From the NCBI GenBank assembly GCA_910592005.1, contig CAJVPP010000862.1, positions 1 to 25,267 of the forward strand: 25,267 nt of DNA, given 5' to 3'. A program made the translations under genes and the position numbers. Under the pieces are notes generated by a model. That model made no database searches, was not told where the DNA came from, and saw nothing but the letters and a program-made list of their open reading frames with translations. Below, piece after piece: positions 1,489 through 25,267 of the stretch. The stretch comes from Funneliformis mosseae. Lineage: Eukaryota; Glomeromycota; Glomeromycetes; Glomerales; Glomeraceae. Numbering within the stretch: the stretch's first letter is position 1; the number at the start of each line of letters is the position of its first letter.

Positions 1489-2329
1489 AATGATGCATTT
1501 GGATATGTTAAGCGTGTTCATTGAAAAAAATCTGATTGTTCTTTTGTGTTAAAATTTTTAATAATGAAATCAATTTTAACGAAATTATAAAGAGGTAATA
1601 ATATTATACCTATTTAAATTAATTTGCATTATGCTATAAGAATTACATAAAGAAGTTTTTCCAAGAGCATTGGAATCAACATTTGGACTGGTTCATCTAA
1701 ATATTATAAGTATTTATGGATCACAAGGAAGAAACCGGTAAATTTTAGATGTATAATGTAAAGATTTTTAATAATAAGATTTTTTTTTTAATTCAAATTA
1801 TTTTCACACAAGCATATGCAATAAAAAGATACTCATTAATTTTGGAATTTGCCGATAGTGGCAAATTAAATACATATATATTAAAATGCTATTTTAATAA
1901 CTTGATTAGAATGACAAATCTTAACTAGTTTCGCAGCTGGCAAGTGCTGTAGTATTTTTGCATCCATGGTATATTGTTCATCGTGATCTGGTTATAATTA
2001 TCTTTTGTAACGTTATTTTTCAACTTAATTTATTATGGTTCTTTAAATAATTAATATATGAAAATTAAGCATGCAAATAATATACTAATACATCAGAAAG
2101 CCATTAAATTAGCTGACTTTGGTTTATCACTAAAAGTCACAGACATTTCAAGAAATGAGTTAAATTTATAAGGAACTAAAAAATTTAAATTGTCGAGTAA
2201 ACTAGGTAACAGGAACTGTTGAAGCGTCCGAAACGTTATTCACTAATTATGCATCATAAAATTGTTCTAAAAGAAATGCTTTTCTAAGTTAAAAATGTAT
2301 CTAAAAAATATATAATATAGTTAAAATTA

Positions 2330-2811
2330 GGGATGCTAATGGTCACGGTCATGACCGGTCATAACCGTGACCGATATCGGTCGGTCAAAGGCTTCTAACC
2401 GACCGATTCTGACCGATTTTTTTTATTTCTCTTGCTTGAAAAGTGCAATTTTGAACATAATTTTTTTGACAATCTAAGCAAATAAGACAAATAGGACATG
2501 CGTTCAAACGAAATTCCATTTTTTGTAATATATATTAGTAAAATATTGTTTATTTTATTGTGTAAATATAAAACACGTGTTACACTAATAATAAATATAA
2601 CGTGGTATTGATACCGACAACCCGACAACTCGACAAATACCCGGCATCAAATTTGCCGAGTGTCCCGCATATTTTTAATTTTTCTGTAAGCCAAAACTGC
2701 TCAATTATATATTACCATTAACTGTCGGTCACTGGTCAGTTAAAATCGGTCAGTTAACCGGTCAGTCGGTCAAAGGCCTTCGACCGACCGTTGGCCGACA
2801 TTTACCATCCC
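2330..2811. mobile_element. MITE-like element with GGGATG ends and TA target duplication
   Basis: The left end begins GGGATGCTAATGGTC and the right end closes GACATTTACCATCCC, an imperfect inverted pair (GGGATG at both tips). Both sub-terminal regions are packed with GGTC/GACC-type motifs such as CGGTCGGTCAAAGGC, present in inverted orientation at the two ends. TA lies directly outside each end (2328-2329 and 2812-2813). That fits Tc1/mariner-type insertion, although other families also use TA. No transposase frame is present, and a 77-codon minus-strand open frame inside is chance. It sits within the decayed kinase and within a TAGNTAAAA tandem tract. Confidence 0.75.
2614..2667. repeat. Internal copy of a CCGACAACCCGA / GTGTCCCG repeat
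   Basis: This segment carries CCGACAACCCGACAACTCG, then CCCGGCATCAAATTTGCCG, then AGTGTCCCG. The same order of motifs (tandem GGGTT(C/G)TCG octamers, a GCCG...TTTGCCG arm and a GTGTCCCG flank) makes up the foldback element at 23017-23156. It is inferred to be a worn, truncated relative captured inside the MITE. Confidence 0.5.
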
Positions 2812-2872
2812 TAGCTAAAATAGCTAAAATCATACTAGTTAAAATAGCTTAGCTAAAATAGTTAAAAATTGA
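2812..2872. repeat. Degenerate tandem TAGCTAAAA repeat
   Basis: About five imperfect copies of TAGCTAAAA or TAGTTAAAA follow the MITE directly. A further copy (TAGTTAAAA) sits on its left side at 2318-2326. The MITE therefore appears to have inserted into this short tandem tract at a TA step. Confidence 0.6.
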
Positions 2873-3289
2873 ATAATTAAAATTTAAATTTATTTCCATG
2901 TTTGATAAAAAAAATTTTCACACAAAAAGCGAATTTTTAATAAAAAGTTATATCGCGTAACATAACTTTTATTCACTGTTAAGAATATTAATTTTACGAT
3001 GAAAAATGTTTCTATGTAAACGTTATTGTTACACTTGATCCTAAAATTTCATTAGTTATAGTCGCGGCGTGACAGACAAACCTTGCATGATTTCAAGTGG
3101 ATCGGAAAAAATCCTTTGCTAACGCTTCGGACAATAATCTGATATTTATAGTATTGGAGTTTTGATGTGGCAAATTTCAAATGGAAAAAGACCATTTTGT
3201 GAAGAACATATTGAATTTGATATGAAAATATTGATCTTAAGAATACTTAATGGAGATAGAGAAACAATCATCAGTGGTAATCCTATGGG

Positions 3290-3392
3290 TGTCGTCTAAA
3301 ATCCCGAAACCCATAATCCCGAATGCTAAAATCCCAAATGCCATAAACCCGACAGACAAGTACAAAATCCCGACTAGTATAAAATCTCGACA
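3290..3392. repeat. Dispersed AAAATCCCGA-type repeat
   Basis: The segment opens TGTCGTCTAAAATCCCG. It continues with several spaced variants of AAAATCCCGA, CATAATCCCGA, AAAATCCCAA, ATAAACCCGA and AAAATCTCGA. The period is loose (about 12-20 bases) and the GC content is locally higher than in the flanks. It abuts the C-lobe remnant of the kinase and supplies that frame's stop codon. It looks like the end of a transposable element, but no inverted partner was found. Confidence 0.55.
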
Positions 3393-3542: not shown

Positions 3543-6500
3543 TCATGGTTCTTTTTTTACATTTGATTCATCATTATCTGCACTTTCATACACTACTCTT
3601 TTATAATCTCTAAATCTGTATAATCTTCCTACAATATTACTAAGTATACATAAACAGGATGACATAAGTGTTAATAAAGGTATTGCATCATAATATACCA
3701 CTTTTTTAAAATATATAAACTATTGGATTTATTAAATTAATAGTTAATTATAAATATATTAATGATAATCAAAATAAAATAAAAAAATTAAATACCTGAA
3801 TAATTAATTGAGGTATATCTTCAAATAAGATATTAAAGCAAGATCCCCAAAATATTCGATTTAATGCTTCTTTAGAAAATGTAGCATTAAATATATCAAA
3901 CCCTCCAATAATTACTTTAGATTCAAGTATTGTTAATAATTCAACCTCAGATCCTGCTAATACTGTGAACACGTCTACAACCTTTTTATTCTCTCTTGAC
4001 CATTCAAAAAATTCTCTCATTTTTTCTTCCTTTTTAATAATGACAAATGCAATTATTACACTTATGATAAATGGACCTATCGTAAATAAAATGCTAAAAG
4101 AAATTATTGTTAATATTTTTCATTTCATTTAATTTAGCTGCATACATACATTTTTACCTTGGGATATATAATGCTTCAATATTTTTGGCTTTTGTAATAA
4201 TAAAAGTAATATCCATGATGACATCAAAAATGATGATACCAAGTTGAAATATTACAGTATTTTTTGCCTAAATATCAATAAAAGGTTATTTGTAAATAAG
4301 GATATTGTTCCTTTCAATCGAATATAAAATTCATGATATTTACGTCAGCATTTTTACGTTTGGCGTAAAAGAAAAAACAAATCAATACTAATGTGATTGC
4401 AAATATTCCAAGGAGAGCTGATCCATAAGTTTTCCGCCAATTAGCTATTTTATGTTCAGGATTTAAAGTTATAAATATATTTAGCTTTATTTGAAAGAAT
4501 CTCCATACCAGTAAACTACTACTATTATATGATAATTTTAAAAATTGAATTCTTACGGAGAGTTTTATATCCATAATCCTCATCTAAATAACTGGTTGAT
4601 TCACCTGAGGCGATAACAGTGATAGGTTTATTCTTAATCAAACTATCTAAATCCATAATTGCCAAACTAACTGATCTTTCTTGTTCAGTCTCCATTTTTT
4701 TAATGTCAATGGATAAAAAGATTTGTTTTTGAGAAACTGAAGTATCGATTTCAAATCCTTCATTGGTAGTTATGCGATTAGGATTGACGGGAATTGCATC
4801 AGCTAATTCTCGTTTTAATTTCATAAGAAAAACTTCGCGATCGGCTTCATAAAGAAAATAAGAAGTTCCTTCTGGAGTCAATCGAACTTGTCCCATAACG
4901 TCATCTGAACTAATTTCAGTTTCAGTTTCTATTTGAAAATGGTTAAGTGCGTTCTAACAGTAATGAAATAAAATCGAAATAAGAGAAAATAAAACATACG
5001 TGTTGTAGTAAACGACCATACATGGTCGTTTACACCATAGAGAGGCTCTTGGTAAATTTTGTCTTTTACAGAATTATTATCAATTGAAACATAATATCTT
5101 CTGCCAGGTTGATTGAATGTGGATTTAAGTATTGCAACTTTAATAGTAGTATCATCACCATAAGATACATATCTGCCGTTGATTCCCGAAGTGGTTTGAC
5201 GTATATTACCATCGTCTTGAAAAATTGTAATGTTACCGTTTGATAATTCAACTTTGTTATAATATTTAATATTGAGGAACTCTAAATCAGATGGAATCAT
5301 GTCATCAATACTTGGAGTCGTGGAAGCGATATGGAAATTATTATATCCATGATCTAGAACATATTAATTTAAATATTAACATTAATGTTACAATGTTTAC
5401 AATATTTGAAATTTTCTAAAGTCACTTACCTCGATCCTCATTAAATTTATGCAATTCCGTGGTGATCAAAGCCCATCTTGGCTTTTCTCCGACTCGAGCA
5501 AGCACAAAAGTATTATTTCTCAGAATAGTGCTACCAGCAATAACGTTTGACTCGACAATGTTTGGAAGATTCCAAGAATAAACTTCACCATCATCATTAA
5601 AAACATAACCATAAACTATAGTTATATTATCAACACTTCCTATTCCACTTAATAAATAACCTCCATATGGTAATAATTGAACAGCATAATACTCAATTAA
5701 TGGATTCGTTTGAATCTTCAATGGTTTAAAATTATATGCGGTTCCACATGAAAGAAAATCAAATTTAAAATAAATGGTTTCTTTAACCGCACCAATTGTA
5801 TATTCTCCTGTTACTATACAGACTTGCCCAATTCCTACATAAGAAACATCGCAATTAATGTCAGTAAACTTTAAACCATGGATTGTAGTTTGATAAAGAA
5901 CAGCTGGTTCTCGTTCAGTCTCTTTGTCGTACTCTAAGATTAATATGTATAATCCTTCCTGAGGAATAATAGAAGTAACTTCGGAATCCGTGGAATTTGC
6001 GTAGACAATTGCGTATCTACCATCCACCATTGGAATGGCTGTTAACATAAGGCTAAGAGATTCTTTAAAATTTAAGATATCTTGCACAAGAAATAAGATA
6101 TTTCCGTCTCCAGTTCTTTATCAAAAATAAATAAAATATTGTAAAATTATTTTTCATAATTAATTTTAATTAATACTAAAATATTTATATGATACATTAC
6201 ACTTCGTATCGCTCGAAGCCAAAGTCAGAAGTATTTGTAATTGGTATTACACGGAGAAACCCTTTGTAAGAATTGTAATTTACAAAAATTCCAGCTTGAT
6301 CAGGCAACCATTGATTAGTGACAACATCTACATAGGTAGATTTAAATGTAGTGTTACTAAGAAAAAGGAAAGTGAATTAATAATGCTGTAAGGTTAATGA
6401 TTTAATAGTAATTTGATTTATCTAACCCGTAAATATTTCCATTTAAATCAATGACCATTGCCTTTTCAATGTAAGTGAAAGGATCATTTAGATCCGCGGC

Positions 6501-6905
6501 CTCCGCATAAGTAACTAACAAAAATTTGCTTCTTATAGGATAAATTTTAATAGGACTCCCAATTCCATAAACTTCGTTTGTTAAACAAAAGTTAAAATCT
6601 TGAATATCTAATTTAATGTCAATTGGTACAACCTTCCCATCAGGATAAATCGTGCGAAGTGACAAGTATTTATCCAACCAAAGTAAACCTTCTTCAGAAG
6701 GGATCGATAAATCGGGACGAATTATGCGGAGGATTATCTTGTTATCACTGTAATTAATAATATCAAATATAGTGGGTGTACTCTTGCTGGCGTTCACAGT
6801 TGGTATGTCATAATACGTAAAATAATTTTGCGTTGTTATTGGTAAAATAGCAAACGAAATAATTGTAAAGATCGTGAAAATAAATATATAATCATTAAAC
6901 TTCAT
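3543..6905 (-). CDS. Large secreted-ectodomain, multi-pass membrane protein (nine exons)
   Basis: The spliced model is complement(join(3543..3719,3796..4093,4158..4267,4344..4444,4557..4928,5000..5353,5430..6115,6201..6356,6427..6905)), 2733 nt, 910 residues. All eight introns are GT-AG, 64-112 bases long, and every junction keeps frame. Residues 1-25 (MKFNDYIFIFTIFTIISFA onward) form a signal peptide. Residues ~26-685 are extracellular, beta-rich, with repeated GG/DG turns and NNTF-type glycosylation sites, possibly propeller-like (inference). Residues ~690-711 form a strong membrane segment (LLGIFAITLVLICFFFYAKR). Further hydrophobic segments lie at ~721-741, 754-772, ~833-852 and ~860-882, with a charged loop (MREFFEWSRENKKVV) between the third and fourth. 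The C-terminus is polar and acidic (YESADNDESN). The FEDIPQLIIQ block and the layout recall a large uncharacterised Rhizophagus membrane-protein family. No catalytic motif was seen, so the role (surface sensing or adhesion) is unknown. The start codon is chosen because it opens the signal peptide and lies 76 bases from a TATA-like motif. Confidence 0.85.
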
Positions 6906-13281: not shown

Positions 13282-14250
13282 TTATTTCTTTTTTTTTTGT
13301 GCATAAATCCTATGTACTTTAACATATGTTTGATTTACTTCCACTTCTTTAGCTATAATATCAAACATTTCTTCAAATGATGATTGTGAAATACCCATGT
13401 ATTCATTCATACCAATACATGTATGAGCATTTCTGAAGATTTTGAAAGCCTGCAAAGAATGCAAAACCATTTAATAGGTTGTTCACAAAAGGAAATAATG
13501 GAAATATGTTTAGATACTTACCACTGCACCCAAATTACTTCCCCAAAGTGGAGCGATTGTTTCATTTATAATAACTTCGCTTTCTAATTCTCCTGTGGCT
13601 TCAAGAAAACCTTTCAGACATGGCTTGATATTTAAATTTATTCCTTTTGAAATAAAACGTTTCTTCGTTGCATCCAACAATCTTTTCATTGTGGGGCCAA
13701 CATTTTTAAAGTCGTAAGCTCCTTCCATTAGCTACGAAATAATAATAATTTTTTTTTAGCTTTATTAATTTTTTTTTATTAAAGAAAGAAACACCAGAAA
13801 CATACATACTTCTATCCAACCATTGCTCTTTACGCAGCGTAACATGTCTTTGATTATGATTGGCCAATCAGATTCTTTCCATGCCATAAACATATTTTCT
13901 TGAAAAACAAAATCAAAAGTGTTATCGAAGAATGGGAGTCCATGAAGGGCATTGCATTGAATGAATCCAAGGTTTTTAGGGCGTAATTCTTCATTAAACA
14001 TTATGGAAATGTCGACTCCAACAAATGTACAATTTGAATATTCGCAACTCATATCAAAGAGCCATCCTCCAGAACCGCATCCTACATCAAGTACTCGAAG
14101 GCCGCCAGCTTTAAATTTTTTTTTTAAAGGCGTATTGAAATTGTTTCCTTTCCAAATGAACTTTGAAACATGATGTTGCATCCTTAATCTATTAGCTTCA
14201 TCCGCGCTATTTGGAAAAAGGTAATCTGGTTCGTTTTCACATTTCTCCAT
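13282..14250 (-). CDS. SAM-dependent class I methyltransferase (three exons)
   Basis: The model is complement(join(13282..13449,13522..13731,13810..14250)), 819 nt, 272 residues. Both introns (72 and 78 bases) are GT-AG, phase 0, with GTAAGT and GTATGT donors. Motif I, VLDVGCGSGG (residues 53-62), binds the S-adenosylmethionine methionine/ribose part. FVGVDIS (76-82) ends strand 2 with the ribose-binding acid. FIQCNALHGLPFFDNTFDFV (96-115) holds the adenine-contact and motif II region. RCVKSNGWIELMEG is the motif III strand and spans the first splice, which supports it. The C-terminal part (GPTMKRLLDATKKRFISKGI, then QKKKK at the end) is of the Glomeromycotina type of this methyltransferase. 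Substrate is unknown. No signal peptide, so probably cytosolic or nuclear. The start ATG is the first in frame, and upstream is a run of A/T. The reading frame is intact. Confidence 0.9.
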
Positions 14251-23016: not shown

Positions 23017-23156
23017 TTACAGCAAATTTCATAAGTTACAGAACACCTGGTAAAATTTTTGCCGAGAAGTCCGGGTTCTCGGGTTCTCGGGTTGTCGGGT
23101 TCTCGGCAACCGAGAACCCGGCAAAAATTTACCAGGTGTCCCGAAATTTGCTGTAA
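23017..23156. mobile_element. Foldback (long inverted repeat) element with CGGGTTCT tandem core
   Basis: Two stacked inverted arms surround a short centre. The outer arm TTACAGCAAATTTC (23017-23030) pairs perfectly with GAAATTTGCTGTAA (23143-23156). The inner arm ACACCTGGTAAAA followed by TTTTTGCCG (23043-23064) pairs with CGGCAAAAA followed by TTTACCAGGTGT (23119-23139), with a one-base difference. The centre is CGGGTTCT repeated about four times (one unit CGGGTTGT), followed by GGCAACCGAGAACC, which can fold back on it. Open frames of 72-73 codons here on both strands are artefacts of the palindrome. It lies about 180 bases upstream of the secreted-peptide gene's TATA box. Confidence 0.75.
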
Positions 23157-23335: not shown

Positions 23336-23343
23336 TATAAATA
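23336..23343 (+). promoter_or_regulatory. TATA box (TATAAATA) of the secreted-peptide gene
   Basis: CGTATAAATACACCC lies 217 bases before the ATG at 23560. The stretch between is C/A/T-rich (CACCGTCACTACC and similar) with few G, typical of a transcribed leader. The TATA is flanked by the CACCC extension seen in the other two promoters. Confidence 0.55.
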
Positions 23344-23559: not shown

Positions 23560-23873
23560 ATGAAAACTTTTATCTGGTTTGCCGTTATCTTTTGCATCAT
23601 TTATGGAATGATGATTAACGCATTACCCATCGAGGAGGGAGATGAAGGTTAAGATCAATTTCTTTACATTGTTTGAAAATATTCCAATTTCTTGCATTAT
23701 ATTTAATACATGATGATACTTGATTTGTAGTTCACCTTCTTGAGAAGCGTTGTAGTTTTTTCTCAAGGTTGATCGGTGACTGTGACAATCCCGGAGCAGT
23801 TTGTGCGTCTGACATGGATTGCGGTGATTTGGAATGTCTCCCAGCCGGGACTGGACCTCATCGTTGTCAATAA
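23560..23873 (+). CDS. Small secreted cysteine-rich pre-pro-peptide (two exons)
   Basis: The model is join(23560..23647,23731..23873), 231 nt, 76 residues. The intron is 83 bases, GT-AG, and the frame is kept (codon G|TT). Residues 1 to about 21 (MKTFIWFAVIFCIIYGMMIN, then A) form a signal peptide. Residues 22-34 are an acidic propeptide (LPIEEGDE...). KR at 35-36 is a Kex2-type cleavage site immediately before Cys37. The mature part has six cysteines: C37, C47, C54, C60, C65, C75, spaced C-x9-C-x6-C-x5-C-x4-C-x9-C, and ends RCQ. Six cysteines with even number and tight spacing suggest three disulfides, perhaps knottin-like (inference). Its role is unknown. Secreted cysteine-rich peptides of this layout are candidate symbiosis or signalling effectors in fungi. 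Leader, TATA box and AATAAA are all in place, so it is probably expressed. The second exon is GC-richer than its surroundings, as expected of selected coding sequence. Confidence 0.88.
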
Positions 23874-23920: not shown

Positions 23921-23926
23921 AATAAA
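23921..23926 (+). terminator. AATAAA polyadenylation signal
   Basis: AATAAA lies 48 bases after the TAA of the secreted-peptide gene, in a T-rich context. This is a plausible 3' processing signal. Confidence 0.5.
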
Positions 23927-23929
23927 TTT

Positions 23930-24434
23930 TTCATACGTAAACTATACGAATTCAATACGAAAATGTTAATAGAACTTAAATTATACATTGGGGTGGGGAA
24001 AATACATTTGATAAATAATAAATAGCATTAAATTTCATTAAATAATTTCAATCACGCGAGTGTAAATAATTGTCATATATGAAATAAACATTTATTGTCT
24101 TAGAAAAAAAGATGTTTTTTTGATTTCATATTTTTAATGTTTCCTAAAATGCATAAATATTATTTATTTAAAATGGTTGCTCTTAAATTTCTTCTTTATG
24201 ACGGTTTCAATATGTTTAGGCGTCAACTGACTATTTACTTCACCCTTCATGATGAGTAAACACTACTCTTTCTTTTACATGCATGAAGGTGTACAATATC
24301 ATTCTGAAAGAAAACAAGTTTTGAACTTGCACTTCATTTATTAGTTTTAATGAATTTATGGTCAAAATTTTTAATTTAATGTTTTATTTATAAGTTATTA
24401 AACTAATATCGCTACATTAGAAAGATTAATATAA
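23930..24434. other. AT-rich stretch, one imperfect hairpin
   Basis: No gene. CACCCTTCATG (24241-24251) can pair with CATGAAGGTG (24282-24291), with one bulge. Confidence 0.4.
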
Positions 24435-24837
24435 GGCCGGGCAAAAAAATTTTTTAGATTCTCGTGACCCGACCGCCTCAATTTTTACAAAAACTCGTGA
24501 TTTTTTTTTTATAGTAAAATTTTTATCACGTGACTTTATATAATGAAAAAATCGTAATAGCATATATACTTTATTATAAAAAATTTTAACATATATTTTC
24601 GTGATTTTTTGTTATTTGAAATTTGATATTCTTAGCACGTTTTTTTTTTGTCAGAAACTGTCAATAACACTCACTACAATAATAATAATATCCTTCATTT
24701 ACCTTACTATTTGCGTAATACAAAACATAATATAAAATACATATAAAAAAAATTATATATATAAAAAAAAAGCCGGGTGACCGTGTCAATTTTAAAATTT
24801 TATGTTCACGAGAATCTAAAAATTTTTTTGCCCGGCC
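24435..24837. mobile_element. 403-bp MITE with ~31-bp terminal inverted repeats and TAA duplication
   Basis: Both ends read inward GGCCGGGCAAAAAAATTTTT followed by AGATTCTCGTGA, differing by one T. TAA flanks both sides (24432-24434, 24838-24840). A three-base TWA target and GGCC ends fit the PIF/Harbinger type (family assignment is inference). The inside is AT-rich with GTGACCCG and GGGTGACCG near the two ends and no transposase frame. The 85-codon minus frame overlapping the right end is not credible as a gene. Confidence 0.85.
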
Positions 24838-24840
24838 TAA

Positions 24841-25267
24841 AATGCAGGCAAGATCACACAATAACAAATTTACATCATTACCATATCGGCTTTTGTTAAA
24901 GACGTAAATTAAAAACACGAGCTGCTATAATTATAATGATTAAAATTTAGACTTACACATTAGAAAATTTCACGAATATAAAGTTAAAAAAAACAAAATT
25001 ATTATTTTTATATAATATTGTAATAATTGTAATAATCGAATTGGGTATTTTTTTCCAACAGATAAATAATTAAAGGTTTACCTGATCGTAGCAGAATGTG
25101 TTATGTTAGCATTTCTAAGTTGATATTTTAGTCGTTTGCTATTAAAATAAGATCCAAGATGAAGAAATTCTAGTGAACTGAACGTGATTTTAATAGCAAA
25201 TTTCCAATTGATTTTCTCAAAAATTTAACCTGTTTCTTGAAGTATAAGTATCATTCTCTGTCCATAA
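24841..25267. other. AT-rich window end
   Basis: No gene. The only structure is the perfect inverted repeat at 25135-25200. Confidence 0.45.
25135..25200. repeat. Perfect 14-bp inverted repeat
   Basis: TTTGCTATTAAAAT (25135-25148) and ATTTTAATAGCAAA (25187-25200) are exact reverse complements, separated by 38 bases containing GATCCAAGATGAAG. It could be the two ends of a tiny element or a hairpin in a transcript that continues past the window. Confidence 0.65.

Follow-up and report, generated by a model that had tools for sequence, protein, structure and literature searches.

We conclude that Funneliformis mosseae probably possesses a genuine, lineage-restricted gene for a small cysteine-rich secreted protein (SCR, a class defined below), whose Kex2-released peptide functions extracellularly, at the root or hyphal interface. 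The gene has two exons and lies on the forward strand at positions 23560-23873 of the window, by which we mean the whole 25,267-nt stretch of DNA that was analysed. The gene itself is in all likelihood real, and its product, already annotated, is a secreted protein of a kind that is ordinary for arbuscular mycorrhizal (AM) fungi. The first-pass annotation had proposed a secreted, Kex2-processed disulfide peptide of the effector or peptide-signal type; the anatomy supports the first part of this proposal well, and the effector or signal role is one that we infer. It had also looked to Glomeromycotina for relatives, in keeping with the F. mosseae label of the database protein.

Translation places the ATG at 23560 and the stop codon, TAA, at 23871-23873, and the extent of the gene and its single intron at 23648-23730, both claimed beforehand from the letters, proved exact to the base. 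Exon 1 (23560-23647, 88 nt) encodes the signal sequence MKTFIWFAVIFCIIYGMMINA and the start of a propeptide. Exon 2 (23731-23873, 143 nt, stop included) opens with the end of the propeptide, VHLLEKR (23731-23750), the first codon of which is split by the intron, and continues with a mature peptide of 40 residues (23751-23870). The intron is 83 nt long (GTTAAG...TTGTAG) and carries in-frame stops, and the frame is thus open when spliced and closed when unspliced; the same junction is implied by the database protein described below. The donor GTTAAG is unlike the commonest fungal donor form, and this counts against the gene model. As for flanking signals, the gene had been credited with its own TATA box, and TATAAATA is indeed present at 23336-23343, starting 224 bases upstream of the ATG, but it is weak evidence because the window holds 17 such words, both strands combined. 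A bacterial promoter scan of the window was set aside as uninformative for a fungal gene. An AATAAA at 23921-23926 is a possible polyadenylation signal, and further such words start at 23869, 24017 and 24083.

The expectation that a gene this small would easily be missed by annotation fails here, for the identical spliced protein of 76 residues is already a database entry (NCBI/UniRef; 8154_t:CDS of F. mosseae). In numbering it follows 8153_t:CDS, a three-exon methyltransferase gene on the reverse strand of the window (13282-14250) that is closely related to genes of other Funneliformis species, and its naming style is common to entries from several AM fungal genera among the matches of a search with the methyltransferase. 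For one published set of AM fungal assemblies, genes were called by GeneMark-ES with protein alignments as a guide (PMC10512289), and we infer that the entry comes from that set or from a similar one. It is probably itself a gene prediction, second to ours, and therefore does not amount to independent proof of the gene. A spore RNA-seq set of F. mosseae exists (SRR5279405), which PMC8786786 describes as low in quality.

We searched for relatives of the peptide in several ways. When the whole precursor was compared with 5.8 billion proteins by a word-based search, the sole match was its own entry; this search requires a shared five-residue word, so that relatives below an estimated identity of roughly 45%, or unannotated ones, could escape it. 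Pfam and NCBIfam profiles gave nothing at E values up to 10, and a sequence search of the PDB returned two chance matches (E 1.7 and 2.2). Within the organism's own genome, an assembly of 82 Mb in 4154 contigs, protein and DNA queries found no paralogue besides the peptide locus at the sensitivity used. As a control, a search with the neighbouring 8153_t:CDS recovered 16 proteins at E values up to 1e-30, including those of F. geosporum (84% identity) and F. caledonium (60%), and hence proteins of both species are present in the database searched. Because the neighbour finds two other Funneliformis species while the peptide goes unmatched, the peptide is species-restricted, or fast-evolving, or unannotated in its relatives. 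Species labels here are uncertain, since an isolate called F. caledonius groups with F. mosseae by rDNA (PMC10512289). The portions consulted of the literature on F. mosseae effectors and its genome make no mention of the gene, and other papers may discuss it.

The composition of the locus resembles that of a coding sequence. GC content is 0.375 and 0.483 in the two exons, 0.229 in the intron, 0.235 and 0.255 in the flanks and 0.277 in the window as a whole; for two coding stretches nearby the values are 0.36 and 0.34. At third codon positions the peptide gene has a GC content of 0.42 versus 0.32 and 0.23 in those stretches; its codon make-up therefore differs from theirs, which counts against the gene. 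We also enumerated all one- and two-exon models having a hydrophobic start, a KR or RR site and an even number of cysteines, at least six, after that site. The real window yielded one such model, and none was found in 600 third-order Markov sequences of equal length. When one more filter was added and the random sequences were matched to the locus in composition (GC 0.39), some model with six or more cysteines appeared in 15 of 300 sequences, and in none of the 300 did cysteine make up 15% or more of the mature part. These figures are a guide only, because the criteria were fixed after the gene had been seen, and on them a chance origin of the gene model is unlikely. That the frame arose by chance, or that the model is wrong and never expressed, is highly improbable: the unusual donor, the common TATA word and the 15 six-cysteine models among random sequences speak for it, and against it stand the empty controls (0 of 600, and 0 of 300 at the higher cysteine content), the coding-like composition and a separate gene prediction that gives the identical protein.

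The 76-residue precursor comprises a hydrophobic N-terminus ending in INA, a propeptide of 15 residues and the 40-residue peptide. The hydrophobic core of the signal sequence has a mean Kyte-Doolittle value of 3.12, an AlphaFold2 model of the precursor has an N-terminal helix at residues 2-21, and by eye we placed signal cleavage after A21 and saw no second hydrophobic segment in the precursor. The propeptide, LPIEEGDEVHLLEKR, is acidic and ends in LLEKR directly before the first mature cysteine, and thus supplies a KR site after the signal sequence, as in Kex2-processed precursors. Seven of the 76 residues are cysteines (9%), one of them inside the signal sequence; the other six fall within the 40 residues of the mature peptide, at positions 1, 11, 18, 24, 29 and 39, in the spacing C-x9-C-x6-C-x5-C-x4-C-x9-CQ that had been claimed for it. 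The mature peptide has a mass of 4.16 kDa, a pI of 4.17 and, with two basic and six acidic residues, a net charge of -4.2 at pH 7.

A protease able to act on this site is indicated by a kexin-like locus elsewhere in the genome (L005; G000:C1619, about 5120-5467). A profile search found the P domain (PF01483) over its cut-off there, in two pieces at one place, and frames read by eye add an S8-protease-like exon and a C-terminal hydrophobic segment. ORFs of at least 200 amino acids were not found at this locus.

From these features a course of events can be proposed. Judged from its hydrophobicity, the N-terminal signal sequence would direct the precursor into the secretory pathway, where the acidic propeptide probably aids folding in the ER. 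The fungus's own Kex2 would then cut after KR in the late Golgi, and the released peptide of 40 residues would be held by three disulfides, perhaps around a small core, a knottin-like beta-hairpin formed by the last 29 residues. The acidic peptide most likely acts extracellularly, as a small effector in the apoplast or a ligand facing the host, and not as a membrane-active antimicrobial. Its pI and net charge argue against a cationic membrane-active peptide and make a host-facing ligand or inhibitor the likelier role; a host-facing function would follow by analogy.

The strongest alternative, which we regard as somewhat unlikely, is that the peptide is a secreted disulfide peptide serving the fungus itself or its neighbours in the soil, whether as an endogenous signal, as a protein of the hyphal surface or by antagonising microbes, and is not aimed at the plant. 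The same precursor anatomy would fit such a peptide equally, yet its pI and net charge are unlike those of cationic membrane-active peptides, and an endogenous signal would be expected to be conserved, which the protein search did not bear out. In favour of action against neighbours, knottin-like and other fungal secreted folds have been discussed as possible anti-microbe weapons (PMC9632046). We also counted against the favoured reading that the R. irregularis SCRs are reported to form no expression clusters in the survey of PMC5293756. A bolder version of the host-facing reading holds that the peptide is a species-specific symbiosis signal or effector, a Kex2-released variant knottin with a longer first loop, that has a part in determining which hosts F. 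mosseae is compatible with; this we consider distinctly unlikely.

The peptide gene sits between two inverted-repeat elements. Upstream is a foldback element (23017-23156) with perfect outer arms of 14 nt, which ends about 180 bases before the TATA word; counting the element itself, 24 pieces of the genome match it, some of them on both strands at one place. Downstream is a MITE-like element (24429-24843) with terminal inverted repeats of about 26 nt; at least 79 matching pieces occur in the genome (40 of 85 candidates were scored), and the seven best near-full-length copies besides itself are 89-94% identical. In Fusarium, MITEs are reportedly found in effector promoters (PMC3599309), and a parallel for the peptide gene was suggested. 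We rejected the transposon link as evidence for an effector because there is no background rate against which to judge it and because a third inverted-repeat element lies in the same window, at about 2.34-2.8 kb. This third element (about 2341-2790) is inside remnants of a protein kinase gene with broken frames (1600-3290; phrases such as DIYSIGVLMWQISNGKRPF, the kinase reading being by eye). On the reverse strand at 3769-6905, a set of ORFs resembles, by eye, one multi-exon gene that begins in a signal-like way and has a hydrophobic segment close to its end; none of the three of these ORFs that were scanned reached a Pfam cut-off.

The position between two repeated elements also bears on a further alternative, that the gene is young, having arisen recently from non-coding DNA, and that its product is translated and secreted with its function not yet settled. 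A single locus found in its own genome, the want of any homologue among the 5.8 billion proteins at word-based sensitivity and a third-position GC unlike that of two neighbours are consistent with such an origin. We nevertheless judge it very unlikely, as the exon GC is high relative to the flanks and a signal sequence, a Kex2 site and six cysteines came together in none of the 600 random sequences.

A lineage-restricted secreted peptide, the reading that we favour, would join a large company. AM fungi have hundreds of predicted secreted proteins, most of them without known function; in R. irregularis, 688 of 872 lack a Pfam domain (PMC5293756). Taken alone, the peptide is one orphan among many. 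It is also compact and chemically accessible, with 40 residues and three possible disulfides, and it can be synthesised and tested on roots.

Three known systems invite comparison. The first is that of the Kex2-processed repeat proteins (KEPs), such as the SP7 group and the alpha-pheromone precursors (PMC6339444, PMC5293756), which resemble the peptide in having a signal sequence followed by a KR site. By definition a KEP yields four or more fragments when cleaved in silico (PMC6339444), whereas the peptide lacks repeats and its one KR site gives two fragments after the signal sequence, and we therefore rejected this assignment.

The second is that of the AM fungal SCRs, defined as proteins of fewer than 200 amino acids that contain two or more cysteines and no less than 3% cysteine, with a SignalP signal peptide and no transmembrane domain (PMC5293756). 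With 76 amino acids and seven cysteines (9%), the precursor falls within the size and cysteine limits; it is likewise short, cysteine-rich and probably secreted. According to the same survey, SCRs account for 141 of the 872 secreted proteins of R. irregularis and for 625 of the 2633 of Gigaspora rosea; in neither set do they fall into sequence families, and 772 of the 872 R. irregularis secreted proteins are unique. The peptide differs in coming from another genus, with no sequence relation shown, and in its single Kex2 site abutting the first mature cysteine, a feature that the consulted portions of PMC5293756 do not describe for SCRs.

The third is that of the knottins, or inhibitor cystine knot (ICK) peptides, whose threaded disulfides join C1-C4, C2-C5 and C3-C6. 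The first-pass annotation had not recognised the spacing as that of a named family, but part of the spacing is familiar: of the loops 9-6-5-4-9, the first lies outside both the consensus CX3-7CX3-8CX0-7CX1-4CX4-13C (PMC4942781) and the wider CX2-7CX3-10CX0-7CX1-17CX4-19C (PMC6889267), and loops 2-5 lie inside both. Among all spacings of equal total length, 2.9% place loops 2-5 within the narrower consensus, and in 11% at least four of the loops, whichever they are, fall within it. Structure prediction, which had been proposed as a check, gave poor models. AlphaFold2 runs without an alignment reached mean pLDDT values, both of low confidence, of 65.0 for the mature peptide (41.8 to 65.0 over five models) and 60.9 for the precursor. 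In the precursor model, strands lie at 16-20 and 27-31 of the mature residues, and the strand at 35-39 of the mature model is absent; a search of PDB structures with the mature-peptide model gave no significant match. Given the low confidence of both models and their conflict over the last strand, we do not rely on the knottin-like hint. The first loop, at nine residues versus 3-7 or 2-7, and the absence of a sequence match set the peptide apart from the knottins, which include known or suggested fungal effectors such as Avr9 and MLP124266/AvrP4 (PMC9632046, PMC6889267). It resembles them in its six cysteines, in its loops 2-5 and, in the low-confidence mature model, in its strands near cysteines 3, 5 and 6.
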